Shown: piece after piece, positions 8,717 to 27,955 of the stretch
Numbering within the stretch: the stretch's first letter is position 1
How the letters are laid out: each line of letters opens with the position of its first letter
Source of the DNA: Corallococcus soli
GTDB lineage: Bacteria > Myxococcota > Myxococcia > Myxococcales > Myxococcaceae
Direction of reading: 5' to 3'
NCBI RefSeq assembly: GCF_014930455.1
Contig: NZ_JAAIYO010000007.1
Location: forward strand, 124,001 to 188,000
Length of the DNA stretch: 64,000 nucleotides
Notes under the pieces: generated by a model
Databases searched by the model: none
The model's input: only the letters and a program-made list of their open reading frames with translations
What the model was told of the DNA's origin: nothing
Position numbers and translations under genes: made by a program

Positions 8717-9727
8717 ATGGCCGCGAAGTCCGCCCGCAAGTCCGCCCCCGCGAAGTCGAAGTCGGCCACCCCGCGCAAGCCCCGGCGCAAGAAGGCCGAG
8801 CCGAAGTCGCGGGGCCTGTCCGCCTCCGACGTCGCCAGCGAGTCCGTCGCCTTCCCGGACGAGCTCCTCCAGGCGGTGCGCCAGGACGGCGGGGAGGTGC
8901 TGGCCGTCTACCGCGATCCGCTGGGCGGGCACCCCGTCGTCTTCGCCGTGCTGCCCATCGACAAGGTGGAGCCCACGCCCTACCAGCGCGACCTGTCCGA
9001 GCCCCACGTCAAGCGGCTCGCCACCGCCATGGAGCGCCTGGACCGCTTCCTGGACCCCGTCATCGCCGTGCGCGTGCAGGGCCGCTACTGGACGCCCAAC
9101 GGCAACCACCGCCTGCACGCGAGCCGCCTGCTGGGCGCGAAGTCCATCGTCGCGCTGCTGCTGCCGGAAGAGGACGTGGCCTATCAAATCCTGGCCCTCA
9201 ACACGGAGAAGGCCCACAACCTGAAGGAGCGCTCGCTGGAGGTCATCCGCATGGCGCGGGGCCTGGTGGGCGCGGGCCGCCCGGGCAGGGAGTCCGCCTA
9301 CGGGCACCTCTTCGAGGAGCCGTCCTTCCTCACCCTGGGCGCCGCCTACGAGAAGCGCCCCCGCTACTCCGCCGGCGCCTACCACCCCTTCGTCAAATTG
9401 GTGGAGGGCTTCCAGGAGCTGCCCCTGCCAGAGGCCCTGGCCCTGCGCGACGCCCGCGCGGAGCGCCTGCTGGAGCTGGACGACGCGGTGGTGGCCATCG
9501 TCGCGGCCCTGAAGGAGCGCGGCCTCCAGAGCCCGTACCTCAAGAACTTCGTCGTCGCCCGCCTCAACTTCCTGCGCTTCCGCAAGGACGGCGCGCCTCC
9601 CACCTTCGACGCCACCGTGGACCGCATGCTGGCCAGCGCGAAGCGCTTCAACGTGGACAAGGTCCGCCGCGAGGACATCGGTCGCATGGGTGGGGGCCCC
9701 CTGGAACCGGACGAAGAGCACGCCTGA
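8717..9727 (+). CDS. Stand-alone ParB/Srx-domain protein
   Basis: The 336-residue protein begins with a Lys/Arg/Ala-rich tail (residues 1-33) that could bind DNA non-specifically. A ParB N-terminal (CTP-switch/nuclease-like) domain follows at about 75-160, with IDKVEPTPYQRDLSEPHVKRL and the signature GNHR at 129-132. The remainder is helical, with an R-E-D-I-G-R-M tail. It lacks the helix-turn-helix arrangement expected of chromosomal ParB and no parA or parS is nearby, so it is not the segregation ParB. Related stand-alone ParB-like proteins are widespread and mostly uncharacterised. The ATG at 8717 is preceded by a strong AAGGAGGG site. It lies 46 nt before the response regulator and may share its transcript. 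Confidence 0.85.
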   Translation: MAAKSARKSAPAKSKSATPRKPRRKKAEPKSRGLSASDVASESVAFPDELLQAVRQDGGEVLAVYRDPLGGHPVVFAVLPIDKVEPTPYQRDLSEPHVKRLATAMERLDRFLDPVIAVRVQGRYWTPNGNHRLHASRLLGAKSIVALLLPEEDVAYQILALNTEKAHNLKERSLEVIRMARGLVGAGRPGRESAYGHLFEEPSFLTLGAAYEKRPRYSAGAYHPFVKLVEGFQELPLPEALALRDARAERLLELDDAVVAIVAALKERGLQSPYLKNFVVARLNFLRFRKDGAPPTFDATVDRMLASAKRFNVDKVRREDIGRMGGGPLEPDEEHA

Positions 9728-9773: not shown

Positions 9774-11180
<1,407 letters not shown>

Positions 11181-11223
11181 GCGGCGGACTGACAGGCCGT
11201 CACACCGGCCCCCGCCCGCTTTT

Positions 11224-11234
11224 GACAAATTGTC
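11224..11234. promoter_or_regulatory. Palindrome upstream of gspC (candidate enhancer site)
   Basis: GACAA-A-TTGTC is a perfect palindrome around a central A, about 135 bp upstream of the predicted gspC transcription start. That is a suitable distance for an upstream activating site of an NtrC-type regulator. It overlaps a TTGACA-like hexamer (11222-11227), so it could alternatively be part of a sigma-70 promoter. Confidence 0.4.
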
Positions 11235-11282
11235 CGGACGCGTTGTCAGCCCCGCTCCCCTGGCCGGGCCCGCGTCCTATTC

Positions 11283-11295
11283 CGAAATAATTTCG
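11283..11295. promoter_or_regulatory. AT-rich palindrome upstream of gspC (candidate operator)
   Basis: CGAAAT-A-ATTTCG is a perfect 13-bp palindrome in an AT-rich island within very GC-rich DNA. It is centred about 75 bp upstream of the predicted gspC start site and 60 bp (about six helical turns) from the palindrome at 11224-11234. The helical phasing suggests both could be bound by one regulator. This is unproven. Confidence 0.4.
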
Positions 11296-11337
11296 CGTAC
11301 TTGACCGTAAGTCCTGGGTTTCCCACCCGCCCAGCGA

Positions 11338-11353
11338 TGGCACCTGCCTTGCT
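11338..11353 (+). promoter_or_regulatory. Sigma-54 (-24/-12) promoter of the T2SS operon
   Basis: TGGCACC-TGCC-TTGCT matches the sigma-54 consensus TGGCACG-N4-TTGCW at every position except the seventh. The invariant GG (11339-11340) and GC (11351-11352) have the required 12-base offset. Transcription would start near 11364, leaving a leader of about 29 nt with a GGAAG ribosome site before the gspC ATG at 11393. The gene immediately upstream encodes a sigma-54 activator. Confidence 0.75.
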
Positions 11354-11392
11354 CACGGTCCCATGTGGGGCTGGCTTTCTCCCGGAAGCGTG

Positions 11393-12307
11393 ATGGAACT
11401 CTTCTTTCGTAAATACTTCTGGAGCGTGAACCTGCTGTTCATCCTGCTCGTCGCCCTGCTGGCGGCGCGCACGGTGAACCTGTTCGTCGAATCCTCCATC
11501 TCCCCCTCCCCCGCGTCGGAGGCGCCCGCCCGCGTCGCGCAGCGCACCCACACCGCGGACACGGCGCTCGCGTCCATCGACGCGGAGCGGCTGTCCAGGC
11601 TCACCGGCGTGAAGCTGCCGGAGCCGGAGGTCGCGGTGAAGGCGCCGGACGAGACCCGGCCGGAGTTCGACGCCAACGCGCCGCCGGCCAAGAGCAGCCT
11701 GCGCGTGAAGCTGCTGGGCACGCTCGTCGCCAGCAATCCGGACTGGTCGTTCGCGTCCATCCAGGACATGACGACGCAGCGCTCGCAGACGTACATGATT
11801 GGCAACGACCTGATGGGCGCGACCATCATGGAGATCGAACGCGAGCGCGTCATCATCAACAACGGCGGCCGCAAGGAGTTCATCGACGGGCAGCCCGGGG
11901 ATGGCGCCGTCGCCGCCTACACCCCGCCCCCCGTCGCCGCGCCGGCCAACACCACGGGCATCGGCAACGGCATCAAGTCCACCGGGGAGAACGAGTACGA
12001 AGTCCCCAAGGCGGAGATCGACAAGACGTTGAGCAACCTCAACGACGTGGCCATGCAGGCGCGCATCGTGCCCGCCTTCAAGGATGGTCAGGCGGTGGGC
12101 TTCAAGCTTTTCTCCATCCGCCCGGATTCCATCTATTCGAAGATCGGCGTCCAGAACGGTGACGTCATCCGTCGCATCAACGGCTTCGACCTGAACAGCC
12201 CCGAGAAGGCGCTGGAGGTCTACTCGAAGCTGAAGGACTCCTCCCGCATCGAGATCGAGATCGAGCGCAACGGAGCGCCGATCCGCAAATCCTACAACGT
12301 CCGTTAA
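11393..12307 (+). CDS. gspC: T2SS inner-membrane clamp protein GspC
   Basis: The 304-residue protein has the GspC layout. It has a short cytoplasmic N-terminus, one transmembrane helix at about 9-28 (NLLFILLVALLAARTVNLFV), a Pro/Ala linker, a homology-region domain at about 95-165 (LRVKLLGTLVASNPDWSFASIQD) and a C-terminal PDZ-like domain (about 215-300, RRINGFDLNSPEKALEVYSKL). GspC connects the inner-membrane platform to the GspD secretin and helps select substrates. An in-frame ATG ten codons earlier lies at the predicted transcription start, whereas 11393 has a GGAAG site, so the shorter form is preferred. First gene of the gsp operon, 25 nt before gspD. Confidence 0.93.
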   Translation: MELFFRKYFWSVNLLFILLVALLAARTVNLFVESSISPSPASEAPARVAQRTHTADTALASIDAERLSRLTGVKLPEPEVAVKAPDETRPEFDANAPPAKSSLRVKLLGTLVASNPDWSFASIQDMTTQRSQTYMIGNDLMGATIMEIERERVIINNGGRKEFIDGQPGDGAVAAYTPPPVAAPANTTGIGNGIKSTGENEYEVPKAEIDKTLSNLNDVAMQARIVPAFKDGQAVGFKLFSIRPDSIYSKIGVQNGDVIRRINGFDLNSPEKALEVYSKLKDSSRIEIEIERNGAPIRKSYNVR

Positions 12308-12332: not shown

Positions 12333-14951
12333 ATGAAGACGCTCCCGTCCTGGATGCTCTGTCTGTGCCTCGCGCTCTCCGTCCCCGCGTGGGCCCAGCG
12401 CCGTCCTTCGCAGCCCGGTACGCCTCCCGCCTCGGATGAGCGCGACCGGACCATCACCCCGCAGCCCACCACCCCGCCGGCCCGCGGCACGGCCACCGCC
12501 TCCCCGGAGGCGAACCAGGGCCCGCGCCAGACGCCCTCGTGCGAGGAGGCCCGGCGCCGCGCGCGCTACGGCATCTACTTCGACAAGGTGGACATCGAGA
12601 AGCTCGTCCAGACCGTGTCGGACGCCACCTGCCGCACGTTCATCCTCCCGGAGAACGTGCGCGGGAAGATCTCCATCATCGGTCCGGAGAACGGCCGCGT
12701 GGAGGTGGACGCGGACTCGTTCTACTCCGCGTTCCTGGCCGCGCTCGACGCCAACGGGCTCGCCGTCTACCCGTACGGCCGCTTCCTGAAGATCGTGGAC
12801 AAGCGCTCCGCGAAGCAGAACCCCATCCCGACGATCGTGGACGAGTCGACGCCGTACACCACGAACGAGCAGATGATCACCAAGCTGTTCAAGATCAAGT
12901 ACGTGGAGGTGGAGCCCCTGCGCGGCGTGCTCCAGCAGCTCGTGTCCAAGGACGGCGACACCATCCCGTACCCGCCGGACACCATCATCATCAACGACGT
13001 GGGCTCCAACATCCACCGCCTGGAGCGCCTCATCAACCAGCTGGACAGCCGCTCCTCCAGCGATGAGATGCGCATCATCCAGGTGCAGTACGCCACCGCC
13101 CAGGACGTGGCCAACACCGTCCAGAAGCTCTTCGAGGCGAAGGCGGGCGCGCGCCCCGGCCAGCGCCCCGGCAGCTTCCCGCAGGGCACCCCCGGCCAGC
13201 CCCCCGGCCCCGAGGGCGGCGTCGCCCCGGGCAGCGGCGGCGACACGGGCGGCGCGGTGACGCTGTCGCAGATCATCCCGGACGAGCGCACCAACAAGCT
13301 CATCGTCGTCGCCAGCCCCGCGGCCTTCGGCCGCATCCAGGACCTGGTCAACGAGATCGACATCCCGTCGGAGACGGGCAACAAGATCCAGGTCTACCCG
13401 CTGGAGAACGCCAACTCGGAGGAGCTGGCCAGCACGCTCCAGTCGCTGGCGCAGGGCACCGCCAACCGCCCGCAGCGCGGCCCCGTGGTGCAGCAGCCCC
13501 AGGGCATCCCGCGCGGGAACACCACCCAGGCCGCGGAGCTGTTCAGCGGCGAGGTGAAGATCTCCGCCGACAAGGGCACGAACTCGCTCGTCATCGTCGC
13601 CAGCCCGTCCGACTACAAGAACATCGTCAAGATCATCCAGCAGCTGGATCAGCCGCGCCGCCAGGTGTTCGTGGAGGCCGTCATCATGGAGGTGAACCTG
13701 GACCGCAACAGCGAGTTCGGCATCAACTTCCACCAGGGCTTCAGCCTCAAGACGGACGACGGCGCCATCCCCGGCATCTTCGGCACCAACTACGGCGGCG
13801 GCGGCGTGCCCCCGTCCTTCTCCCTGGCGAACCTAGCCAGCATGGGCGGCTTCCTCGCCGGCATCCAGGGCCCCGTCCTGCCGGAGCTCAAGAACCTGGG
13901 CATCGACATCCCGGCGTTCGGCGTGGTGCTCAACGCCATGCAGCAGTCCTCGGACGTGAACGTGCTGTCCACGCCGCACCTGCTCACCAGCGACAACGAG
14001 GAGGCGGAAATCACGGTGGGCCAGAACGTGCCCTTCCAGTCCGGCTTCAACCCCACCAGCCTGGGCAGCTCCGTCACGGGCGGCGCCGGTGGCACGGGCG
14101 GCCTCGCCCCGTCGCTGCTGGGCTCGCTGGGCGGCCTGGGGTCGCTGTACGCGCCCATCACCCGCCAGAACGTGGAGCTGAAGCTCACCGTGAAGCCGCA
14201 GATCAACGAGAGCGACTACATCCGCCTCGTCATCACGGAGCAGACGGAGGAGATCGCCTCGTCGGACCCCGTGCTCGGCCCTACCACGTCGAAGCGCAGC
14301 GCGAAGACGACGGTCATCGCCAAGGACATGGAGACGGTCGTCATCGGCGGCATCATGCAGGACCGCACCCTGGAGTCCGTCTCCAAGGTCCCGGTGCTGG
14401 GTGACATCCCGCTCCTGGGCCACCTGTTCCGCGACACCACGCGCCGCAAGACGAAGACGAACCTGCTGCTGTTCCTCACGCCCTACATCATCCGCGGCCA
14501 GGAGGACTTCCGGCGCATCTTCGAGCGCAAGATGAAGGAGCGTCAGCAGTTCGTGGAGCAGTTCTACGGCCAGGTGCCCGGCTACGACGTGGCCGTGGAC
14601 TTCAGCCGCAAGCCCGGTCCGCTGTCGCGCATGAACCAGTCCGTCATCAAGGAGGAGCAGCGCGTGGAGAACGGCGGCCCCGGCACCTCCAACGAGCGCG
14701 TCATCCGCCCCGCCGGCAGCCCGGCCGCCCCCTCCCCGTCCCCCTCGCGGCCGGGTGGGCAGGCGCCCGCCTCGCCTGAAGGCACGGGCCCCGCCCCCGA
14801 GGGTGAGCAGGCGCCGCGAAATTTAGAGGCGGCGCCGGACGGTTCAGAAAGACCCGTACCCACGACACCGGCCCCGCAGCCCGAGGTGATCGCGCCCGCT
14901 CCGGACGCCGACACCGACCGGCTGCGCATCCAGCCGGAAGATGGGGAGTAA
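12333..14951 (+). CDS. gspD: T2SS outer-membrane secretin GspD
   Basis: The 872-residue protein has a signal peptide (residues 1-21, ending PAWA). The periplasmic ring domains N0-N3 (residues about 70-430) include YGIYFDKVDIEKLVQTVSDAT and two long Gly/Pro/Gln-rich loops inside N2/N3. The conserved secretin pore domain starts near VFVEAVIMEVNLDRN and contains VPVLGDIPLLGHLFRD and the closing TNLLLFLTPYIIRG. A disordered tail of about 130 residues rich in Pro, Ala, Glu and Gly follows the secretin core; it is longer than in many GspD proteins and might replace or augment a pilotin-binding S-domain. No pilotin gene is visible here. It forms the multimeric outer-membrane channel through which folded proteins leave. 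Its 3' end lies 4 nt before the preferred gspE start. Confidence 0.96.
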   Translation: MKTLPSWMLCLCLALSVPAWAQRRPSQPGTPPASDERDRTITPQPTTPPARGTATASPEANQGPRQTPSCEEARRRARYGIYFDKVDIEKLVQTVSDATCRTFILPENVRGKISIIGPENGRVEVDADSFYSAFLAALDANGLAVYPYGRFLKIVDKRSAKQNPIPTIVDESTPYTTNEQMITKLFKIKYVEVEPLRGVLQQLVSKDGDTIPYPPDTIIINDVGSNIHRLERLINQLDSRSSSDEMRIIQVQYATAQDVANTVQKLFEAKAGARPGQRPGSFPQGTPGQPPGPEGGVAPGSGGDTGGAVTLSQIIPDERTNKLIVVASPAAFGRIQDLVNEIDIPSETGNKIQVYPLENANSEELASTLQSLAQGTANRPQRGPVVQQPQGIPRGNTTQAAELFSGEVKISADKGTNSLVIVASPSDYKNIVKIIQQLDQPRRQVFVEAVIMEVNLDRNSEFGINFHQGFSLKTDDGAIPGIFGTNYGGGGVPPSFSLANLASMGGFLAGIQGPVLPELKNLGIDIPAFGVVLNAMQQSSDVNVLSTPHLLTSDNEEAEITVGQNVPFQSGFNPTSLGSSVTGGAGGTGGLAPSLLGSLGGLGSLYAPITRQNVELKLTVKPQINESDYIRLVITEQTEEIASSDPVLGPTTSKRSAKTTVIAKDMETVVIGGIMQDRTLESVSKVPVLGDIPLLGHLFRDTTRRKTKTNLLLFLTPYIIRGQEDFRRIFERKMKERQQFVEQFYGQVPGYDVAVDFSRKPGPLSRMNQSVIKEEQRVENGGPGTSNERVIRPAGSPAAPSPSPSRPGGQAPASPEGTGPAPEGEQAPRNLEAAPDGSERPVPTTPAPQPEVIAPAPDADTDRLRIQPEDGE

Positions 14952-14955
14952 GTCC

Positions 14956-16782
14956 ATGAACCTGACCGCCGACCCCACGACCCTTCAAGCCGCCGACGCG
15001 TCCACCGACGGTGTGGGCGGCCGCAACGACTCCACCCAGGTCGTCGCCCACGGGCAGGCGTACCTGTGCGGACGGCCGCTCGGAGAGATTCTCCGCGCGC
15101 TCGTCCCCGCCCTCACCCCGGAGAAGATCCAGGAGGCGCTCACCGCGCAGCCGGAGAAGGGCCTCCGGCTGGGCGAAATCCTGGTGGGCATGAAGGCGGT
15201 CACCGACGAGGACGTGGCGCGCGCGCTCGGCCACCAGCTGGACCTGCCCTACCTCCAGCGCATCTTCACGGAGGAGGTGGACGCGGACCTGGTCAAGCGC
15301 ATCCCCATCAACTTCGCCCGCCAGACGAAGCTGCTGCCCCTGTCCATGGAGGGTGACGAGGTCATCCTCGCGGTGGCGGATCCGCTGGACACCGCGGCCC
15401 TGGACCACGCGCGGCTGCTGCTGGGCCAGAGCATCCAGCCCCGCATCGCGATGGCCTCCACCATCGTGGACGCCATCAACAGCGTGTACGACCGCTCGGT
15501 CAACGAGACGGCGGACCTCGTGGACGAGATGGAGACCACGGAGGACCTGGACTCGCTGGCGCACGAGCTGGAGGAGCCCAAGGACCTGCTGGACGCGGAC
15601 GACGAGGCCCCGGTCATCCGGCTGGTCAACTCCGTGCTCTTCCGCGCCGCCAAGGAGCGCGCGAGCGACATCCACATCGAGCCCATGGAGCGCGAGCTCC
15701 TGGTGCGCTTCCGCATCGACGGCGTGCTCCAGGAGGTCATCAAGCCTCCCAAGCGCTACCAGAACTCCATCATCGCGCGCGTGAAGGTGATGGGGCAGCT
15801 CAACATCGCGGAGAAGCGCCTGCCGCAGGACGGCCGCATCCGCATCAAGCTGGCCGGCCGCGACATCGACATCCGTCTGTCCACCACGCCCACGTCCTTC
15901 GGCGAGCGCATCGTCATGCGTCTCTTGGACAAGACGGCGACGCTACTGGACCTGGCGGAAATTGGCATGAGCCAGCAGGTGCTGGAGTCCATGCAGTCCG
16001 TCATCAAGCGCTCGCACGGCATCGTGCTGGTGACGGGGCCCACGGGCTCCGGCAAGACGACGACGCTCTACGGCGCGCTCTCCAAGATCAACACCTCCGA
16101 CCTGAACATCCTCACCGTCGAGGACCCGGTCGAATACCAGCTCAAGGGCATTGGCCAGATGGCCATCGCCCCGAAGATCGGCCTGACGTTCGCGCAAGGC
16201 CTGCGCTCCTTCCTGCGCCAGGACCCGGACGTCATCATGGTCGGTGAGATCCGCGACAAGGAGACGGCGGAGATCGCCATCCAGGCCTCGCTCACGGGCC
16301 ACCTGGTGCTCTCCACCGTCCACACCAACGACGCGGCCGGCGCCGTCACCCGTCTGGTGGACATGGGCGTGCAGCCCTTCCTCGTGGCCTCGTCGCTCAC
16401 CGGCATCCTCGCCCAGCGCCTCGTGCGCCGGGTGTGCCCGGACTGCCGCGCGCCCTACACGCCCACGGACGCGGACCTGAAGGAGCTGGGCTTCACGTTC
16501 AAGAGCTTCAAGGAGCGCTTCAACACCGACCGCATCTACAAGGCGGTGGGCTGCCCGTCGTGCAACCGCAACGGCTACCGCGGTCGCTCCGGCATCTACG
16601 AGTTCCTCTTCGTGGACGACGACGTGCGCCAGCTGGTGCTCAAGAACGTGGACGCGTCCACCATCAAGAAGTCCGCGCTCGCCAAGGGGATGATCACGCT
16701 CCTGGACGACGGCGTGCGGAAGATCGCCCTGGGCGAGACGACCATCGCCGAAGTGCTGAGCATCACGCAGGAGGACATCTAG
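14956..16782 (+). CDS. gspE: T2SS assembly ATPase GspE
   Basis: The 608-residue secretion ATPase has an N-terminal MshEN/GspE_N region (about 35-200) that docks to GspL. The motor domain follows, with Walker A GPTGSGKT (361-368), an Asp box (TVEDPVEYQLKGIGQM), Walker B (DPDVIMVGEIRD) and the His box (LVLSTVHTNDA). The tetracysteine zinc module typical of GspE is present as Cys494/Cys497 and Cys533/Cys536. It powers pseudopilus assembly from the cytoplasmic face. An in-frame ATG at 14941 would overlap gspD by 11 nt. The ATG at 14956 has GGGGAG nine bases ahead and is preferred. Translation is probably coupled to gspD. Confidence 0.96.
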   Translation: MNLTADPTTLQAADASTDGVGGRNDSTQVVAHGQAYLCGRPLGEILRALVPALTPEKIQEALTAQPEKGLRLGEILVGMKAVTDEDVARALGHQLDLPYLQRIFTEEVDADLVKRIPINFARQTKLLPLSMEGDEVILAVADPLDTAALDHARLLLGQSIQPRIAMASTIVDAINSVYDRSVNETADLVDEMETTEDLDSLAHELEEPKDLLDADDEAPVIRLVNSVLFRAAKERASDIHIEPMERELLVRFRIDGVLQEVIKPPKRYQNSIIARVKVMGQLNIAEKRLPQDGRIRIKLAGRDIDIRLSTTPTSFGERIVMRLLDKTATLLDLAEIGMSQQVLESMQSVIKRSHGIVLVTGPTGSGKTTTLYGALSKINTSDLNILTVEDPVEYQLKGIGQMAIAPKIGLTFAQGLRSFLRQDPDVIMVGEIRDKETAEIAIQASLTGHLVLSTVHTNDAAGAVTRLVDMGVQPFLVASSLTGILAQRLVRRVCPDCRAPYTPTDADLKELGFTFKSFKERFNTDRIYKAVGCPSCNRNGYRGRSGIYEFLFVDDDVRQLVLKNVDASTIKKSALAKGMITLLDDGVRKIALGETTIAEVLSITQEDI

Positions 16783-16788
16783 TCCGCC

Positions 16789-18045
16789 ATGCCTGTCTTC
16801 GAATACAGAGGCCTCGACTCCCACGGCAAGCAGAAGAAGGGCTTGCTGGAGGCGGACTCGCCCAAGACGCTGCGCTCCAAGCTGCGCGCGGACGGCATCT
16901 TCCTGACCGACGTGCTCGGGCAGGCGGAGGGCAGCCGCGCGGGCGTGTCCAAGGGCGCCAACGCGTCGCTCGTGGCGCGCGACGTGGACCTGCGCAAGCT
17001 GGCCGGCGGCCGCGTCAGCACGGAGGACGTCGCCATCCTCACCCGGCAGCTCGCGACGCTGCTGGGCGCGGGCGTCACCATCGTGGACTCGCTCAACGCG
17101 CTGGTGGACCAGGCGGAGAAGGAGCGCTTGAAGCGCGCCCTGTCCGACATCAAGCAGCGCGTGAACGAAGGCTCGTCCCTGGCGGACGCCTTCAGCCAGC
17201 ACCCGAAGATCTTCCCCAGCATCTACATCAACATGGTGCGCGCGGGTGAGGCCTCCGGCGCGCTGGACACGGTGCTGCTGCGGCTGGCGGACTTCACGGA
17301 GAACCAGGCGAGGCTCCAGCAGAAGATCATCGGCACCATGCTCTACCCCGCCATCATGCTGCTGGTGGGCGGCGCCATCCTGGTGCTGCTGATGGTGTTC
17401 GTCGTGCCGAAGGTGACGAAGATCTTCGAGACGATGAAGGCCACCCTGCCCCTGAACACGCGCATCCTCATTGGCGCGTCCAACTTCATGCAGGCGTGGT
17501 GGTTCCTGGTGGTTCCGTCCATCGTGGCGGGCTTCATCTTCTTCATGCGCTGGACGAAGAGCCCCAAGGGCAAGCCCAAGTGGGACCGCTTCACGCTCAA
17601 GGCCCCCATCGTCGGCAGCCTGGTGCGCCTGCTGGCCATCTCCCGCTTCGCGCGCACGCTGTCCACGCTGCTCAAGAGCGGCGTGCCCATGCTGGCCGCG
17701 CTGGACATCGTCAAGGCGGTGATGACGAACTCGGTGCTGGCGGACGCGGTGGAGAACGCCCGCGAGTCCATCCGCGAGGGCGAAAGCATCGCCACGCCCC
17801 TCAAGCGGTCCGGCCAGTTCCCGCCGCTCGTGTACCACATGGTCGCCATCGGTGAGAAATCCGGCCAGCTGGAGGACATGCTCCTCTCCGTGGCGGACTC
17901 CTACGAGACGCAGGTGAACGTGCGCATCGGCGCGCTCACCAGCCTCCTGGAGCCCATGCTCATCGTGGTGATGGGCGTGATGATTGCATTCGTGGCGCTC
18001 TCCATCCTGATGCCGATTCTGCAGGTGAACACGGCCATCCATTAG
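16789..18045 (+). CDS. gspF: T2SS inner-membrane platform protein GspF
   Basis: The 418-residue polytopic protein has the duplicated T2SF domain. It has the N-terminal MPVFEYRGLDSHGKQKKG typical of GspF/PilC, a first domain with LTRQLATLLGAGVTIVDSLNALV, a transmembrane helix (MLLVGGAILVLLMVFVVP), a second near residue 235, a second T2SF repeat (FARTLSTLLKSGVPMLAALDI), and a C-terminal helix (LIVVMGVMIAFVALSILMPIL). It forms the membrane platform coupling GspE to pseudopilus growth. It begins six bases after gspE and is followed at 20 nt by a previously unmarked small membrane-protein gene. Confidence 0.96.
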   Translation: MPVFEYRGLDSHGKQKKGLLEADSPKTLRSKLRADGIFLTDVLGQAEGSRAGVSKGANASLVARDVDLRKLAGGRVSTEDVAILTRQLATLLGAGVTIVDSLNALVDQAEKERLKRALSDIKQRVNEGSSLADAFSQHPKIFPSIYINMVRAGEASGALDTVLLRLADFTENQARLQQKIIGTMLYPAIMLLVGGAILVLLMVFVVPKVTKIFETMKATLPLNTRILIGASNFMQAWWFLVVPSIVAGFIFFMRWTKSPKGKPKWDRFTLKAPIVGSLVRLLAISRFARTLSTLLKSGVPMLAALDIVKAVMTNSVLADAVENARESIREGESIATPLKRSGQFPPLVYHMVAIGEKSGQLEDMLLSVADSYETQVNVRIGALTSLLEPMLIVVMGVMIAFVALSILMPILQVNTAIH

Positions 18046-18065
18046 GAGGCGGAGAGCCCGAGCCC

Positions 18066-18212
18066 ATGATGAACGACACGCTCGACCGGTGGATCCAACG
18101 CGCGACGCTGGTGGGGATGCTGGCCCTGGCCGCCACGCTGGCGACGGTGGGGGCCTCGCTGTATGCCCACCGGGACCCTCCCGCGGCCTCCGGACACCAC
18201 GGCCCTCCCTGA
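18066..18212 (+). CDS. 48-residue single-pass membrane peptide inside the T2SS operon
   Basis: This is a short reading frame between gspF and gspG. The peptide begins MMNDTLDRWIQRATL, has a hydrophobic stretch of about 20 residues (LVGMLALAATLATVGASLYA), then a hydrophilic His/Pro-rich tail AHRDPPAASGHHGPP. A GGAG-type site (ggaggcggag) lies ten to fifteen bases before the ATG pair, and codon third positions are GC-rich like the neighbours. The position in the operon and the translation signal make it a likely real gene. I do not recognise the family. It could be an assembly or stability factor for the T2SS platform. Conservation across related gsp operons would settle whether it is translated. 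Confidence 0.55.
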   Translation: MMNDTLDRWIQRATLVGMLALAATLATVGASLYAHRDPPAASGHHGPP

Positions 18213-18284
18213 AGCGCCCCTGACATCCCGACACACCCCAGGCCGGGTGGCCTGCCAGAAAGTCACCCGAAGGTGAGTGAAGAC

Positions 18285-18704
18285 ATGACGACGACGAACG
18301 CGAAGAAGCAGCAGCGCCGCAAGAACCGCGGCATGACCCTCATCGAGATCATGGTGGTCATCACCATCCTCGGGCTCATCGCGGCGGCGGTGGGCGTGGC
18401 CGTCATTCCGAAGCTGGAAGAGGCCAAGCAGGACACCGCGCGCCTGGACATCCGCAACATCCAGAGCGCGATGAAGCTCTACTACACGAAGAAGGGCTCC
18501 TACCCGGACACGGCCACGGGCCTCAAGGCGCTGGTGGACACCCAGAACCTGGAGCGCATGCCCACGGACCCCTGGGGCAAGGAGTACGTGTACATGAACG
18601 AGGGCGGCAAGCCGGTCATCACCAGCTACGGCGCCGACGGCAACCCGGGCGGCGAGGGCTCCGACGCCGACATCTCCTCCAAGGACTCGGCGGCCAAGCC
18701 GTAG
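18285..18704 (+). CDS. gspG: T2SS major pseudopilin GspG
   Basis: The 139-residue prepilin has a basic leader (KKQQRRKNRG) and a prepilin-peptidase site after Gly16, then MTLIEIMVVITILGLIAAA with the obligatory Glu at mature position 5. The globular domain has the GspG hallmarks PDTATGLKALV and TDPWGKEYVY, plus an acidic GEGSDADIS stretch where GspG binds calcium. It forms the main shaft of the periplasmic pseudopilus that pushes substrates through GspD. A GTG four codons upstream is possible, but the ATG at 18285 has AAGGTGAG suitably placed. The peptidase (GspO/PilD) is not in this window and is presumably shared with type IV pili. Confidence 0.96.
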   Translation: MTTTNAKKQQRRKNRGMTLIEIMVVITILGLIAAAVGVAVIPKLEEAKQDTARLDIRNIQSAMKLYYTKKGSYPDTATGLKALVDTQNLERMPTDPWGKEYVYMNEGGKPVITSYGADGNPGGEGSDADISSKDSAAKP

Positions 18705-18765
18705 CCCGTCGATTCTTCGCGAAGCAAAGCCGCGCCTCCCGCGTGTTGTCGTAGGAATGCCCGAG

Positions 18766-19242
18766 ATGACTCCCGAGCACACTTCCTCACCGACGTCCGC
18801 GCGTGAGGCGCGTCCCGTTTCCGGCGCGCCCGGCCAGAAGGCCCGCGCCCCCTCCCCCCGCCTGGGCCGCCTGCTGCTGCTGGGCGTGTTCACCGGTGCC
18901 ACCCTGCTCGCGTTCGCGCTGGTGTGGGCCACCGAGGACAACACCCTCACGCCCACGCAGCGCCAGGCGCGCGAGCAGATCCGCCGCCTGGAGGGCTTCT
19001 TCAAGGCCCACCACCGGCTGATGGGCTTCTTCCCCACCCAGGAGCAGGGCTTCACCCCGCTCATCGACTCCAAGGTGCTGGAGGGGCCGCCCATCGACCC
19101 ATGGGGCAACCCGTACGTCTACCGGATGTCGGGCAAGACGGGCGCCGTGCTGTCGCTGGGCTCTGACGGCCAGCCCGGCGGCACCGGCGACGCCGCGGAC
19201 CTCTTCAGCGGCGGCATCGTGGCACAGGGGGTGCAGCCTTGA
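18766..19242 (+). CDS. GspG-like membrane protein lacking a prepilin-peptidase site
   Basis: The 158-residue protein has a Pro/Ala/Ser-rich cytoplasmic tail (about 33 residues), one transmembrane helix (about 34-54, LGRLLLLGVFTGATLLAFAL) and a C-terminal domain clearly related to the GspG head: FFPTQEQGFTPLI, PIDPWGNPYVY and SLGSDGQPGGTGDAADL align with GspG. The N-terminal G-[FM]TLIE motif is absent, so it cannot be processed or polymerised like a pseudopilin and should stay anchored in the inner membrane. An ATG three codons earlier is too close to the TAGGA site, so 18766 is preferred. It sits between gspG and gspH and overlaps gspH by a few bases. Possibly it nucleates or caps the pseudopilus. 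The family relationship is confident; the role is inferred. Confidence 0.85.
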   Translation: MTPEHTSSPTSAREARPVSGAPGQKARAPSPRLGRLLLLGVFTGATLLAFALVWATEDNTLTPTQRQAREQIRRLEGFFKAHHRLMGFFPTQEQGFTPLIDSKVLEGPPIDPWGNPYVYRMSGKTGAVLSLGSDGQPGGTGDAADLFSGGIVAQGVQP

Positions 19243-19970
19243 CGTCCGCCATGTCCCCTCGTCCTGCCCGCCGCCGGGGTGCGCCCCGCGGTCTGACGCT
19301 GATTGAGATCACCATCGCCATCGCCATCGCGGCCGTGCTGTTCGCGGCGGTGACGGTGGGCATCGGCGCGCTCACCGGGGCCAAGGCGAAGGGCAGCGCG
19401 ACGGAGCTCGCGGGCGTCATCCGCTCGCTCTACGACTCGGCGGCGCTCAGCGGCAAGACGTGCCGGCTGGTGTTCGTCATCCCGGACCCGAAGCGCGAGG
19501 AGCCCACGAAGTACCACGCCGAATGCGCCGCGGGCGGCATCACCACCGCGCGCGACCGGGACAACGCGCTGCGCGAGGACGAGCGCGACCGGGAGCAGGC
19601 GGCGCGCAGCGGCGGTGGACAGGATGACCGCAAGAACTACATGCGCTCGGACAATGCGTCACCGTCCGCGCAGGAGCTGATGGAGCAGGAGAAGACGCGC
19701 ATTGAATCCCAGTCCACCTTCTCCGCGCACACCGCGGAGGAAATCTCTCCGCGCGAGCTGCCGTCGGGCGTGGCGGTGTCGGTGTGGACGCGCCATCAGC
19801 GCGAGCCGGTGGAGAGCGGCGTCGCCTACCTCTACTTCTTCCCGCAGGGGTACACGGAGAAGGCCATGGTGTTCCTGCGCCAGGGCGACAACGCGTGGAC
19901 GCTGGACGTGTCACCCCTCACGGGCAAGGTGAACATCGCATCCGAGGCGCTGGAGGTGCCCCGCACATGA
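19239..19970 (+). CDS. gspH: T2SS minor pseudopilin GspH
   Basis: The 243-residue prepilin has a basic leader and cleavage site Gly|LTLIEITIAIAIAAVLFAAV with Glu at mature position 5. Two starts are possible. The TTG at 19239 overlaps the previous stop and has AGGGGG about seven bases ahead; the ATG at 19251 has a weaker site. I report the longer one. The head domain contains a strongly charged, probably disordered insert of about 75 residues rich in Arg, Asp, Glu and Gln, which makes it longer than typical GspH. It is expected in the pseudopilus tip complex with GspI, J and K. Its TGA is embedded in the gspI start (ATGA). Confidence 0.88.
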   Translation: MTSAMSPRPARRRGAPRGLTLIEITIAIAIAAVLFAAVTVGIGALTGAKAKGSATELAGVIRSLYDSAALSGKTCRLVFVIPDPKREEPTKYHAECAAGGITTARDRDNALREDERDREQAARSGGGQDDRKNYMRSDNASPSAQELMEQEKTRIESQSTFSAHTAEEISPRELPSGVAVSVWTRHQREPVESGVAYLYFFPQGYTEKAMVFLRQGDNAWTLDVSPLTGKVNIASEALEVPRT

Positions 19971-20899
19971 GACTTCCGACTCCGGGACGCGGCGGCTTCA
20001 CGCTGCTGGAGACGATGGTCGCCATGGCCATCCTCAGCGTGGCGCTGATGGCCATCTTCGACCTCAACGCGGGCGCGGTCTCCAACCACGTCTACACCAA
20101 GCGGCTCACCGTCGCGTCGCTGCTGGCCCGCTCGAAGATGACGGACCTGGAGCAGACGCTCTACGACGACGGCTTCGACGTCGACGACGACGAGCAGTCC
20201 GGCGACTTCTCCGACGAGGGCTGGCCCCAGTTCAAGTGGCGCGCGCGCATCATCGCGCCCAAGACGGACGGCGTGACGCCGGACCAGCTCATCGGCGCCA
20301 TCTTCAACCTGCCCATGGGCGGCGGCGGCGACAGCGGCGACCCGCTGGGCGGGCTCGCGGGCCTGTTCGGCGGCGCGGGCGGGGGTGACAAGGGCGGCGG
20401 CTCAGGCACCACCACGGCCAGCCCGCTGGGCGGGGCCGCGATGGGCATGGCGCAGCCCATGTTCACGCAGATGGTGGATCAGCTCACCAAGGCCGTGCGC
20501 GAGGTGCACCTCACCGTGTACTGGAAGGAAGGCACCCAGGTGGAGAGCGTGGACGTGGTGACGCACGTGGTGTCGCTGGGGCCCGGCGGCGACCGCAACG
20601 GCGGCTTCACGCCCAACGCGGCGGGCGGCGGCACGGCGGGCGCCCGGGACCAGTGGGTGGACGCCACCGGCCGCGTGGTGGACAACCCCATCCCCGGCCC
20701 CAACGGCGGCATGTTGGATCCGAACACGCGCCAGCCGCTGCGCAACCGCCAGCAGGTGCTGGATGAACTCAACCGGGGCGGCGGTCAGCAGCCGGGCACG
20801 GGCGGCATCAACCCGCGCGCGCCGGGCGGCGGCATCTTCGGCGGCGGACGCGGGGGCTTCCCCAACCTGCCGCTGCCGGGACGGGGGCCCATCCGATGA
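19967..20899 (+). CDS. gspI: T2SS minor pseudopilin GspI, enlarged
   Basis: The 310-residue prepilin has the leader MRLPTPGRGG and then FTLLETMVAMAILSVALMAIFD, the standard class III signal with Glu at position 5. GspI is usually about 120-130 residues. Here it carries a Gly-rich insert (about residues 112-160, many GGG runs) and a Gly/Pro/Arg-rich C-terminal extension of about 100 residues ending LPLPGRGPIR. The canonical parts (SLLARSKMTDLEQTL, VREVHLTVYWKEG, VVTHV) are still recognisable on both sides of the insert. GspI initiates the tip complex of the pseudopilus. It overlaps gspH and gspJ by ATGA junctions, implying tight translational coupling. Confidence 0.9.
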   Translation: MRLPTPGRGGFTLLETMVAMAILSVALMAIFDLNAGAVSNHVYTKRLTVASLLARSKMTDLEQTLYDDGFDVDDDEQSGDFSDEGWPQFKWRARIIAPKTDGVTPDQLIGAIFNLPMGGGGDSGDPLGGLAGLFGGAGGGDKGGGSGTTTASPLGGAAMGMAQPMFTQMVDQLTKAVREVHLTVYWKEGTQVESVDVVTHVVSLGPGGDRNGGFTPNAAGGGTAGARDQWVDATGRVVDNPIPGPNGGMLDPNTRQPLRNRQQVLDELNRGGGQQPGTGGINPRAPGGGIFGGGRGGFPNLPLPGRGPIR

Positions 20900-21570
20900 G
20901 ACGGCACGCACGCGGCTTCACGCTGATGGAGATCATGGTCGCGGTGTCCATCACCGCGCTCATGGGCACCGTCGTGGCCATGGCCTTCCAGACGGGCATC
21001 AACGCCAAGGAGGTGGTGGAGGGCGAGGCGGAGCGCTACCGCATGGTGCGCGTGTCGCTCAACCGCATGGCGCGGGAGATCGGCTCCGCCTACGTGAGCG
21101 ACCGCTACGACCTGCGCCGCTTCCGCGACCAGAACGACCGGCCCACCAACTTCGTGGGCGAACGCGACAAGCTGCTCTTCACCACGTTTTCGCACCAGCG
21201 CCTGTACACGGACGTGAAGGAGTCCGACCAGGCGGTGGTGGAGTACTTCGTGGAGAACTCCACGGAGCGCGCCACGCGCCAGCGCCTGGACTTGAAGCGC
21301 CGGGTGAACCCCAACGTGGGTGAGCGAATGGACCGGGGCGGCACCACGGACGTGCTCTTCGAGGGCGTCAAGAGCGTGGAGTTCGCCTACTGGGATTCGG
21401 AGAAGAAGGAGTGGGATGACGAGTGGGACACGCGGCGCACGGAGAAGAAGTCCATCCTCCCCACGCGCGTGCGCATCACCGTCGTCGCCCTGGACGAGTC
21501 GGGCAAGGAGGCGCGCTACACCACGCAGACGCGCATCGTGCTCAACACGGAACTGCCGAGGTTCAACTGA
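20896..21570 (+). CDS. gspJ: T2SS minor pseudopilin GspJ
   Basis: The 224-residue prepilin has the short leader MRRHARG and FTLMEIMVAVSITALMGTVVA, with Glu at mature position 5. The head contains RMVRVSLNRMAREIGSAYVSD and a long beta-rich body ending with the typical VRITVVALDESGKEARYTTQTRIVLNTEL. GspJ joins GspI and GspK in the pseudopilus tip. It overlaps gspI by four bases (ATGA), and its TGA shares one base with the gspK start (TGATG). Confidence 0.95.
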   Translation: MRRHARGFTLMEIMVAVSITALMGTVVAMAFQTGINAKEVVEGEAERYRMVRVSLNRMAREIGSAYVSDRYDLRRFRDQNDRPTNFVGERDKLLFTTFSHQRLYTDVKESDQAVVEYFVENSTERATRQRLDLKRRVNPNVGERMDRGGTTDVLFEGVKSVEFAYWDSEKKEWDDEWDTRRTEKKSILPTRVRITVVALDESGKEARYTTQTRIVLNTELPRFN

Positions 21571-23018
21571 TGGCCCCCTCCTTCTTCCGGCAGGTGTCCC
21601 GCCGTCGCAAGCAGGCCCCGGCCGCCGTCCAGGCCCCGGGCGCGCTGACCACGAAGGCCGTGCGCCGCGACAAGCGCTCGCGCGGCGTGGCGCTCATCAT
21701 CGCCATCGTCTCCATCGCGCTGCTCACGGTGGTGGCCACGGAGTTCGCGTACAACAGCCGGGTGGACCTGCAGCTGGCGGCCAACCAGCGTGATGAAGTG
21801 CGCGCCTACTACATGGCCCGCTCGGGCCTGGCGCTGGGGCGGCTGTTGATGCGCTTCCAGAAGCAGGTGGACCAGACGCCCATCCCCAACCCCATGGCCA
21901 TGCTGGGCCAGCTGGGCGCGATGATGGGCGGGGGCCAGGCGCCCGGCGCCGCGGGGCAGGCGTTCCAGCCGCAGTCGCTCAACATCCAGCTGTGGAAGCT
22001 GGCGCGGGTGGACTGCCACATGCTCAAGGGGCTGGTGAAGAGCGAAGGCGCGCAGGTGGAGGACGACAGCGGCGGCGGCACCCGGAGCCGGCTGGAGAAT
22101 GATCCGGTGGACGTGGACCCGAACTTCCAGATGGAGGACGGGGACGGTGCGGGCGGCGCGGCCGCGCAGATGGCGTCGCAGATGCAGCGCCGGTCCTTCG
22201 GCGGCTTCGAGGGCTGCTTCCTGGCGACCATCACCGACGAGGAGGAGAAGCTCAACGTCATGCGCCTGAACACCGGCGGCGCGGAGGCGCAGGCCACCGC
22301 GGCGCGCATGCTGGACATGCTCGGCGACAAGCGCTTCGAATTCCTCTGGCAGCAGGACGACGCGAACAAGGTGCGCTCCACGCCGGAGGAGACCCTCATC
22401 GCGCTGAAGGACTGGGCGGACGAGGACCCCTCGCAGTCGGCGCTCAACCGCCAGGACCCCACGAACCCCTTCGCCGTGGGCTTCGCGGACGAGGGCTCCC
22501 CCTACAGCCGCTACGAGCCGCGCTACGAGGTCAAGAACGGGCGCTTCGACAGCCTGGACGAGCTGTACCGCGTCCACGGCGTCAACGACCGCTTCATGGC
22601 GGCCTTCCGCGACCGGCTCACGGTGTATCCGGACATCAACTCCAAGCCGAACATCAACACCGACGACCCCATCATGCTGGGGCTGGCCATCATGTCCGCG
22701 GCGGACCCGAACCGTCCGGACCCGCGCCTGACGGATCCGGTGTTCCTCAACGAGCTCATCAGCCGCATCCGCGCCGCGCGCATGTTCAGCTTCTTCGGCA
22801 TGTCGGTGCAGGACTTCCTGGGCGTGGTGGAGCAGGCGGGCATCGCGGTCAACCCGCTCATCAAGGGCAACGTCGCGCAGAACCGCTACCTGGGCGACAA
22901 GAGCAAGACATTCACCATCAAGTCCGTGGGAGAAGCGGGCAGCGTCCAGAAGACGCTCACCGCGGTCATCCGCCTGGACGACGGGCTGGGCAAGCTCGTG
23001 TATTACAGAGAGGAATAG
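21570..23018 (+). CDS. gspK: T2SS minor pseudopilin GspK
   Basis: This 482-residue pseudopilin is the largest of the set, as expected for GspK. It has an unusually long basic leader of about 38 residues before the processing site Gly|VALIIAIVSIALLTVVATEF. Like other GspK proteins it has no Glu at position 5, which fits a position at the very tip. The body includes ANQRDEVRAYYMARSGLALG, the Asp-rich region that can bind calcium, and the two-lobed domain typical of the T2SSK family (PNINTDDPIML). It has a Gly/Met/Ala-rich insert near residues 105-135. The start is the ATG overlapping the gspJ stop. Confidence 0.94.
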   Translation: MAPSFFRQVSRRRKQAPAAVQAPGALTTKAVRRDKRSRGVALIIAIVSIALLTVVATEFAYNSRVDLQLAANQRDEVRAYYMARSGLALGRLLMRFQKQVDQTPIPNPMAMLGQLGAMMGGGQAPGAAGQAFQPQSLNIQLWKLARVDCHMLKGLVKSEGAQVEDDSGGGTRSRLENDPVDVDPNFQMEDGDGAGGAAAQMASQMQRRSFGGFEGCFLATITDEEEKLNVMRLNTGGAEAQATAARMLDMLGDKRFEFLWQQDDANKVRSTPEETLIALKDWADEDPSQSALNRQDPTNPFAVGFADEGSPYSRYEPRYEVKNGRFDSLDELYRVHGVNDRFMAAFRDRLTVYPDINSKPNINTDDPIMLGLAIMSAADPNRPDPRLTDPVFLNELISRIRAARMFSFFGMSVQDFLGVVEQAGIAVNPLIKGNVAQNRYLGDKSKTFTIKSVGEAGSVQKTLTAVIRLDDGLGKLVYYREE

Positions 23019-23019
23019 C

Positions 23020-24627
23020 ATGGCCCGCATTCTTGGCCTGGACCTCGGCAGCCACTCCGTGAAGGGGGTGGTGCTGGACTCCGGAACGAAAAGCCACACC
23101 ACCCAGGCCTTCGCCGAGGTGCGCCGCGCGCAGGAAGGCGAGCGCCCGGAGACGCTGCGCGCCGCGGTGGAGGCGCTGCTCCAGCAGATGCCGGAGGGGC
23201 ACGTGGATCAGGTCGTCATCGCCCTGCCCGGCCCGTCGCTCACCACGCATACGGTGAGCCTGCCCTTCTCCGACGCCAAGCGCGTGGAGGCGACGCTGCC
23301 CTTCGAGGTCGGCAGCCAGCTGCCGTTCGACATCTCGGAGGTCGTCTACGACTACCAGGTGGTCGGCCAGAAGGACACCGGCGGCAAGGACAAGGCGGCG
23401 GACCTGCTGGTGGGCGTGGTGCGCAAGGAGGAGCTCCAGTCGCTGCTGGCGCTGCTCACGGGGCTCAACCTGGACCCGCGCGTCATCACCCACCCGGCGC
23501 TCGCGTACCAGAACCTCTTCGCCCAGGCGCCCGGCCTCTTCGAGAGCGTGGGCGAGGGCGGCAGCGTGGCGGTGGTGGACATCGGCCATGAGCGCACGTC
23601 GGTGGCCATTGGCCGGCCGGGCCAGGGCGTGGAGTTCGCGCGCACCTTCTCCGGCGGCGGACGCGACCTGACGCGGGCGCTCGCCGCGGAGTTCCAGACG
23701 GCGCTGCCGGAAGCGCACCAGTGGAAGGAAGCGCACGGCGCCATGGCCAGCGCCGCGCAGGGCCCGGACGCCGAGCGCGCCGCGAACGCCTTCGTGCGCG
23801 GCCTGCAGCCGGTGCTGCGCGAACTGCGCCCGTCCTTCAAGGCCTTCACCGCGCGCACCCGGCGCCAGGTCACCGCGGTGGTGCTGGCGGGCGGCACGGC
23901 GCGGATGCCGGGCCTGGCGGAGCAGCTGTCCAAGGATTTGAACGTGCCGGTGCGCGTGCTGGCGCTGCCGGCGGACGCGGCCGGGAAGATCCCCGCCTCG
24001 GAGGCCCCCTCCGCGGCGCAGGCGTACGCGCTCGCGATGCGCGGCAACGCGGCCGGGGCCCGGGCGCCGCGCTTCAACCTGCGCCGGGGTGAGTTCGCCT
24101 TCAAGGGCGGCTACGACTACGTGAAGGACCGGCTGGGCCTCCTGGCGTCGTTCGCCGTGACGCTGCTGCTGCTGCTCGTCGCCTTCGGGGTGGTGCGCAA
24201 CACGGTGCTGGCGCGGCGCGAGGCGGAGGTGGACGCGGTGCTGTGCAAGACGACCCAGCGCATCCTGGGCACGTGCGAACAGAACTACGACCGCGCCATC
24301 AACATGCTCAAGGGCGTGGAGAGCCCCGCCGCGGCGCTGCCCTCCATGTCGGCCGTGAACCTGCTGGCGGAGATCACCCAGCGGGTGCCCCCGGAGGTGC
24401 CGGTGCGGTTTGATCGCATCCAGGTGGACCTGGACCGGGTGATGCTCCAGGGAGAGACGGACAGCTCCAAGCAGATCGACACGCTCTCCACCGCCTTGAA
24501 GGGCCACCGGTGCTTCAAGGACGTGAAGGAGGGCGAGGTGAAGAAGACGCGGGACGGGCAGAAGGTGACCTTCCGCCTGGACGTGCAGGTGCAGTGCCCC
24601 GGCGAGACGCAGGGGGGGGAGACCTGA
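23020..24627 (+). CDS. gspL: T2SS inner-membrane platform protein GspL (PilM-like)
   Basis: The 535-residue protein starts with an actin/FtsA-like ATPase-fold domain resembling PilM: MARILGLDLGSHSVKGVVLD (nucleotide loop), a VDIGHERTSVAIG phosphate-2-like loop near residue 189, and VVLAGGTARMPGLAEQL adenosine motif. A transmembrane helix at about 375-395 (LGLLASFAVTLLLLLVAFGVV) leads to a periplasmic ferredoxin-like domain. GspL recruits the GspE ATPase to the membrane and binds GspM. The ATG lies two bases after the gspK stop and has GAGAGGAA ahead of it. The full-length actin-like fold with the PilM motifs preserved is closer to PilM than in enterobacterial GspL. Confidence 0.93.
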   Translation: MARILGLDLGSHSVKGVVLDSGTKSHTTQAFAEVRRAQEGERPETLRAAVEALLQQMPEGHVDQVVIALPGPSLTTHTVSLPFSDAKRVEATLPFEVGSQLPFDISEVVYDYQVVGQKDTGGKDKAADLLVGVVRKEELQSLLALLTGLNLDPRVITHPALAYQNLFAQAPGLFESVGEGGSVAVVDIGHERTSVAIGRPGQGVEFARTFSGGGRDLTRALAAEFQTALPEAHQWKEAHGAMASAAQGPDAERAANAFVRGLQPVLRELRPSFKAFTARTRRQVTAVVLAGGTARMPGLAEQLSKDLNVPVRVLALPADAAGKIPASEAPSAAQAYALAMRGNAAGARAPRFNLRRGEFAFKGGYDYVKDRLGLLASFAVTLLLLLVAFGVVRNTVLARREAEVDAVLCKTTQRILGTCEQNYDRAINMLKGVESPAAALPSMSAVNLLAEITQRVPPEVPVRFDRIQVDLDRVMLQGETDSSKQIDTLSTALKGHRCFKDVKEGEVKKTRDGQKVTFRLDVQVQCPGETQGGET

Positions 24628-24628
24628 C

Positions 24629-25195
24629 ATGGCGGACATGGGAAAGCTCAAGGAAGTCTTCGCGCCCCTGCAGACGTGGTTCGAGCGGCTGAGCGACCGC
24701 GAGCGCAAGCTCGTGGGCATCGCGGGCGCGGGCGTGACGGTGTTCATCCTCTTCATCCTGCTCTTCAGCTTCGCCACCAGCGCGTCGGCCTACCGCCGGC
24801 GCACGCAGGACAAGCTGGCGAAGCTCCAGGAGGTGCAGGCGCTGGCGGCCAGCTACGGCGTCGCCCAGCAGGAGCGGCAGGCGGTGGAGCAGCAGCTCAC
24901 CAGCAGCAACGTGCGGCTCATCACGTACATCGAGGACAAGGCCACGGCCGCGGGCCTCACCGTGCCGAACATGTCGCCCAAGGGTGACGTGGGCGTGGGC
25001 GACGGGAAGATCATCGAAAGCTCCGTGGAGCTGACGTTCACCGACGTGGACCTGCGCAAGCTGACGGACTTCCTGCGCACGGTGGAGACGGGCCCGGGCA
25101 TCGTGAAGGTGAAGTACCTGCGCGTGGAGCCCCGCCCGGCCACGGACACCCTGACGGCGTGGACCACCGTCGCCACCTACCGGATGAAGCAATAG
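24629..25195 (+). CDS. gspM: T2SS inner-membrane platform protein GspM
   Basis: The 188-residue protein has a cytoplasmic N-terminus containing FERLSDRERKLVGIAG, a pattern common to GspM, one transmembrane helix (about 31-52, VTVFILFILLFSFA), a coiled-coil stretch rich in Gln and Leu, and a small ferredoxin-like periplasmic domain (VELTFTDVDLRKLTDFLRTVE). It stabilises GspL and the platform. It begins one base after the gspL stop and is followed two bases later by gspN. A second ATG three codons in is an alternative start. Confidence 0.92.
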   Translation: MADMGKLKEVFAPLQTWFERLSDRERKLVGIAGAGVTVFILFILLFSFATSASAYRRRTQDKLAKLQEVQALAASYGVAQQERQAVEQQLTSSNVRLITYIEDKATAAGLTVPNMSPKGDVGVGDGKIIESSVELTFTDVDLRKLTDFLRTVETGPGIVKVKYLRVEPRPATDTLTAWTTVATYRMKQ

Positions 25196-25197
25196 CC

Positions 25198-26249: not shown

Positions 26250-26323
26250 GTTGATGCCCGCGCACGCGCCGTGTAAAGCGCTGGCGGCTGCCCCCGGTGC
26301 CGGGGGCGTTGGGAGAGGTTGGA

Positions 26324-27955
<1,632 letters not shown>

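Follow-up and report, generated by a model that had tools for sequence, protein, structure and literature searches.

A conserved sigma-54 promoter with paired operator sites before the type II secretion genes of myxobacteria, and a probable dedicated response regulator

Secretion machines under sigma-54 and a dedicated activator have been described for type VI systems, with their cognate activators, and for type III systems, with HrpR/HrpS (work cited in PMC3162934). Regulators of the NtrC class such as AtoC, ZraR and NtrC (solved relatives 4l4u and 1ny5) share their domain order, and a -24/-12 promoter, with the regulator described below. At least 27 NtrC-like response regulators are present in Myxococcus xanthus (PMC6211767), and at its nla19-pxr locus, as here, a sigma-54 promoter lies just 3' of the gene for an NtrC-like regulator (PMC5568312). 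A 2025 survey based on a scoring matrix reported that COGs of the type II secretion system (T2SS) are enriched behind predicted sigma-54 promoters in Myxococcia (PMC12316311). The T2SS of M. xanthus brings MYXO-CTERM proteins, for example the kin receptor TraA, to the cell surface (PMC11980579), and sigma-54 is reported to be essential in this species, for reasons left unexplained (PMC2725144; PMC12316311).

The locus considered here, from Corallococcus soli, places a predicted sigma-54 promoter and a pair of operator sites between the gene of an NtrC-type response regulator and a gsp operon. Comparison of genomes indicates that this predicted promoter and the paired sites are ancient and strongly conserved before myxobacterial gsp genes. 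The features are as follows, with positions counted in the whole 64-kb stretch of DNA that was analysed (the window).

9774 to 11180, plus strand: NtrC-type response regulator, here named GspR (Pfam domains, orthology, conserved residues).
11190 to 11202, no strand assigned: operator I, TGACAGGCCGTCA, predicted distal activator site (footprint, pair spacing, genome-wide uniqueness of the pair).
11223 to 11235, no strand assigned: operator II, TGACAAATTGTCC, including GACAAATTGTC at 11224-11234, predicted proximal activator site (footprint).
11236 to 11248, no strand assigned: imperfect third copy, GGACGCGTTGTCA, found in a subset of Corallococcus only.
11283 to 11311, no strand assigned: AT-rich palindrome CGAAATAATTTCG (11283-11295) with the CTTGACCGTAAG block, conserved in much of the family.
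11338 to 11352, plus strand: predicted sigma-54 -24/-12 promoter, TGGCACCTGCCTTGC (exact consensus match and conservation).
11393 to 12307, plus strand: gspC, start ATG 11393, predicted 5' leader of about 29 nt (T2SSC and PDZ; NCBIfam GspC_delta above cut-off).
12333 to 26178, plus strand: gspD (12333), gspE (14941), gspF (16789), gspG (18273) and further gsp genes to gspM (24629) (Pfam).
25159 to 26178, plus strand: presumed gspN, from gene order only, with no Pfam match.
26297 to 27955, plus strand: FHA-type sigma-54 activator, directly 3' of the gsp operon (Pfam).

The genes gspC, D, E, F, G, J, K, L and M stand in one run and make up a T2SS operon, the gspK match being slightly below the Pfam cut-off. 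In the predicted promoter, TGGCAC-CTGCC-TTGC, the GG at 11339-11340 and the GC at 11351-11352 have the 12-bp offset that marks a sigma-54 promoter. Exact matches to TGGCAC-N5-TTGC are rare: this is the single one in the window, and the whole genome (9.44 Mb) holds 11, compared with 4 for the reversed pattern. The genome has a single rpoN gene (Sigma54_DBD match, E 2.7e-64). Counted from the -12 C at 11352, the predicted +1 falls at about 11364, 29 nt 5' of ATG 11393. The gspC start is placed at that ATG, whose GGAAGCGTGATG context is conserved; the longer reading frame that an ORF caller would propose, from ATG 11363, begins at the base immediately 5' of the predicted +1. A second T2SS that would include the M. 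xanthus secretin MXAN3106 (PMC3222651) was considered and dropped; MXAN_3105-3107 are assigned to a Tad-like pilus (PMC10196010).

For the comparison, named genomes supplied gspC loci, as did whole genomes drawn from the family and the class. Of 103 distinct upstream regions in the class Myxococcia, 86 have the motif TGGCA[CT]-N5-TTGC no more than 75 nt from gspC. Related genomes are not independent, and the statistical weight of the counts given here lies less in their size than in the spread over about 10 families, the fixed position and, for the operator pair described below, a reversed control with zero matches. Five of the 17 regions that lack the motif belong to gspC paralogues, which brings the figure for main loci to 86 of about 98, and several of the motif-less loci carry one-letter variants such as CGGCACCTAGCTTGC and CGGCATGGAGCTTGC. 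From the background rate of the sequence, about 0.005 matches per region would be expected by chance, or about 0.5 in all, and 37 of 206,000 shuffled upstream regions matched. The motif is kept in other Myxococcia families in which GspC identity falls to about 30%. Such conservation, far beyond chance, supports the prediction that gspC is driven by a sigma-54 promoter. Cappable-seq data exist for M. xanthus (E-MTAB-11042, as cited in PMC8844925). At one locus (L078), the -24 and -12 halves are apparently split by a GC-rich palindromic insertion, at about -75 to -35 of gspC; the genome is metagenome-derived, and the split could be an assembly artefact.

The original prediction, made from the window alone, had placed a -24/-12 promoter with the GG-GC offset at this position, and both the exact core and the retention of TGGCAC-N5-TTGC in relatives through the class bear it out. 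Its remark that sigma-54 control of a gsp operon is not standard fares less well, as the arrangement holds throughout Myxococcia and the 2025 survey had already reported T2SS genes as enriched behind predicted sigma-54 promoters in that class (PMC12316311).

Alignment of the 212-bp gap between the regulator gene and gspC (the footprint) reveals two conserved TGAC-N5-GTC palindromes whose starts are 33 bp apart in the window. Of 73 regions with the pair, 70 have the starts of the two sites 31-33 bp apart. This corresponds to three helical turns, the arrangement expected when two activator dimers share a face of the DNA, and tandem palindromic sites at about this distance give the gsp operators the likeness of NtrC-type enhancers. 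Operators and promoter are most often 63-65 or 115-117 bp apart, two distances that differ by about five helical turns. Operator II is the more conserved of the two and stays at gspC even when the regulator gene is distant: in some lineages the latter lies about 1-8 kb upstream, and operator II keeps its place before gspC together with the promoter. Family f3 includes several genomes that retain promoter and regulator but whose operators are degenerate or unscored. In many genera the regulator gene ends with the TGA that opens operator I, and in Archangium (L049, L050, L052) both operators apparently lie within the 3' end of the regulator reading frame.

The enhancer pair proposed originally consisted of palindromes at 11224 and 11284. 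Both palindromes exist and the one at 11224-11234 belongs to the conserved pair, but that at 11283-11295 is conserved to a lesser degree, is missing outside the family and was set aside as an enhancer. The pair is corrected here to 11190-11202 and 11223-11235, the partner at 11190-11202 having been overlooked, so that the interval 11224-11393 was about 34 bp too short on its left side. Between the operators and the promoter, the AT-rich palindrome is followed by a conserved CTTGG-CCGT block. Within the family, most loci at which the regulator gene adjoins gspC keep this element (11283-11311), which is not clear in other families; it is possibly an architectural site or the site of an additional factor. 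An IHF site at 11283-11311 was considered and is not convincing, with a mean best score of 6.3 that is weakly above the 5.6 of shuffled sequences. An intergenic RNA element was likewise rejected, the sole Rfam match being a chance one far below the cut-off.

GspR has a complete set of domains by Pfam: a receiver, an AAA+ sigma-54 activation domain and a Fis-type helix-turn-helix (HTH). The phospho-acceptor D54 is present in 93 of the 93 orthologues that cover the position, the loop reads GAYTGA in the window and in 26 of 93 orthologues in all (GAFTGA in the other 67 of 93), and the HTH is intact with conserved recognition-helix residues. Invariant residues in this helix are common in the NtrC-like family and do not by themselves prove specificity. 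The original description of the upstream gene as a complete NtrC-type response regulator is thereby confirmed. A single-copy orthologue occurs in nearly all Myxococcia genomes, with identities of 71-99% in the family (about 50% for the next paralogue) and 61-72% in other families of the class, and in most genomes of the class its gene precedes gspC by about 200 bp. In sequence comparison the conserved tandem palindromes lie upstream of the gspC promoter. In G008 and G086, gspC and GspR are both missing. Single-copy orthology, linkage and this joint absence support the earlier proposal of GspR as the likely activator and make it the best candidate.

Among 25 NCBIfam matches listed, GspR passes none of the equivalog cut-offs for AtoC, ZraR, NtrC, NtrX and GlrR, and the best match listed is AtoC, at 467 of 714 bits. 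The kinase had been predicted not to be local, which agrees with the findings: the window ORFs scanned gave no HisKA match and no cognate kinase next to GspR, and in other families no kinase was seen among the GspR flanking ORFs examined with an H-box pattern and a few Pfam scans. Upstream of GspR, at 8717-9727, lies a gene for a 336-aa protein without a Pfam or NCBIfam match. The M. xanthus GspR is presumably MXAN_2516, given that GspD is MXAN2514; no paper on MXAN_2516 was found in the literature searched.

The distribution of the operator pair points to a very small set of targets. The window's genome contains 42 matches to the single site TGACANNNYGTC, and close pairs occur at two loci only, both before gspC genes. 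The second pair (G000:C14:76849/76881) precedes a lone gspC paralogue (L141:6999-7898) that begins with GTG, has a predicted sigma-54 promoter, TGGCCCTCGTCTTGC, 48 nt upstream of this codon and passes the NCBIfam GspC_delta cut-off (217 vs 150 bits). At this locus, the one examined in detail, no other gsp gene lies beside it, and a convergent ABC-F-type gene follows downstream. A full second T2SS was considered here and rejected: the 765-aa plus-strand ORF that follows the lone gspC is the antisense of the ABC-F-type gene, and gspC2 stands alone. Other lone gspC genes were seen at L191, L188 and L190, likewise preceded by the operator pair and a predicted sigma-54 promoter, and some Myxococcus-type genomes have two lone gspC genes in tandem.

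A search of 96 whole genomes of the family with the paired pattern TGACNNNNYGTC-N17..23-TGACANNNNGTC returned 92 matches, compared with 0 for the reversed control. Seventy lie before the main gspC, and since the pattern was defined after the main-gspC alignment these are to some extent built in; independent evidence comes from the paralogue loci (18 matches, with 2 more on inspection) and from the near-absence of matches elsewhere. The remaining 2 look like chance, one being a repeat in G058 and the other apparent coding sequence in G091. As the pair is nearly always before gspC genes, the apparent regulon is the gsp operon together with orphan GspC genes, and as paired sites elsewhere occur only at lone gspC copies, a single dedicated response regulator probably switches on all of them. 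The original claim of control over the gsp operon is supported and widened, for it had been overlooked that lone paralogue loci carry these operators together with a promoter of this type. A looser search, for one operator plus a sigma-54 promoter, found a gspC homologue in G191 (L214) and a gene for a GspC-like PDZ protein in G148 (L193), both genomes being from other classes of the phylum. Two genes of G008 and G011 whose products are apparently exported came up as well, as did a single gene of G006. Before the exported-protein genes (L198:1501-1572 on G011:C86, and L196 on G008:C283) stands TGACACATTGTC with a -24/-12 match; these genes are possibly extra regulon members or targets of another activator. 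G008 is without the main gspC and without the regulator.

Several other explanations can be set against this evidence. The -24/-12 match might be accidental, with gsp expressed instead from a housekeeping promoter or through read-through transcripts of the regulator gene. The motif is single and short, and control counts show that -24/-12-like sequences arise randomly at such composition. That it recurs at a fixed position throughout the class contradicts an accident, however, and a housekeeping promoter is opposed by the lack of any sigma-70-like site in 11100-11450, where no terminator-like site was found either; this explanation is extremely improbable. Alternatively, promoter and operators may be real and bound by another, unlinked activator of the NtrC family, with GspR serving other targets. 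The operators that stay at gspC when GspR is kilobases off would fit this, as would G011 (estimated complete, 130 contigs), which has gspC with operator and promoter and no GspR orthologue at the threshold used, and so would the 10 GspR homologues checked outside the class, none of which adjoins gspC. The class-wide one-to-one linkage of GspR and its joint absence with gspC nevertheless point to GspR, and an unlinked activator appears improbable.

The FHA-type protein encoded at 26297-27955 offers a further candidate, which would be driven by serine/threonine kinases and would leave the response regulator a bystander. It is a complete sigma-54 activator with GAFTGA intact, and it adjoins gsp throughout most of the family. 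Its linkage is, however, largely confined to that family: no match passes the threshold in family f2, and in sampled f3 genomes it lies far from gsp (about 3 Mb away in G108), whereas in f2 and f3 the promoter, and often the operators, persist beside the response regulator. Moreover, it is kept in G008 and G086. Phylogeny thus weakens the case for the FHA-type protein as the gsp regulator, which we regard as quite improbable, and GspR is favored because the linkage of its rival is restricted and because that rival is retained where gspC and GspR are missing.

Taken together, genome comparison documents the conservation of the predicted promoter, the conservation and specificity of the predicted operators, one-to-one GspR orthology and linkage. 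We consider it likely that the gsp operon is transcribed from a sigma-54 promoter under GspR bound to the operator pair, with lone gspC genes co-induced. Sigma-54 RNA polymerase would transcribe gsp from 11338-11352, where it would wait in a closed complex. A kinase encoded elsewhere would phosphorylate GspR, which would then bind the pair of TGAC-N5-GTC palindromes, spaced by three helical turns, form a ring and, through DNA looping, remodel the closed complex with ATP. With the same operators and promoter at lone gspC genes, one signal may co-induce the machine and alternative GspC subunits. The lone GspCs may plausibly be alternative adaptors for the same channel. T2SS genes of M. xanthus rise during predation (PMC10196010). 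A broader picture, in which one class-wide activator serves every GspC gene, the T2SS is re-tooled with alternative GspCs on a signal that is perhaps prey contact and promoter dependence partly explains sigma-54 essentiality in M. xanthus, is speculative and on balance unlikely.

The T2SS exports surface and extracellular proteins of predatory, social bacteria, and a conserved, dedicated sigma-54 switch with a tiny regulon would give a handle on the timing of its production. The lone GspC proteins are thereby defined as an unstudied group. A sigma-54-dependent main T2SS is also a candidate for one testable contributor to the essentiality of sigma-54 in M. xanthus, and an old puzzle so becomes open to experiment.

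The link between promoter and T2SS was predicted before (PMC12316311); the survey reaches the same conclusion at the promoter level and, in its accessible text, names no activator, operator or lone-GspC regulon. The operators, GspR and the lone-GspC regulon were not found in the literature searched, which was mostly open-access. The nla19-pxr system (PMC5568312) is a different locus with a small RNA as its target, whereas the gsp target is a secretion operon. In contrast to AtoC, ZraR and NtrC, GspR has a predicted TGAC-N5-GTC site of its own, T2SS and GspC genes as putative targets and no adjacent kinase found. Finally, while type VI and type III systems likewise pair sigma-54 with a dedicated activator, the machine here is of type II, its candidate activator is of the response-regulator type and its apparent regulon takes in satellite gspC genes.
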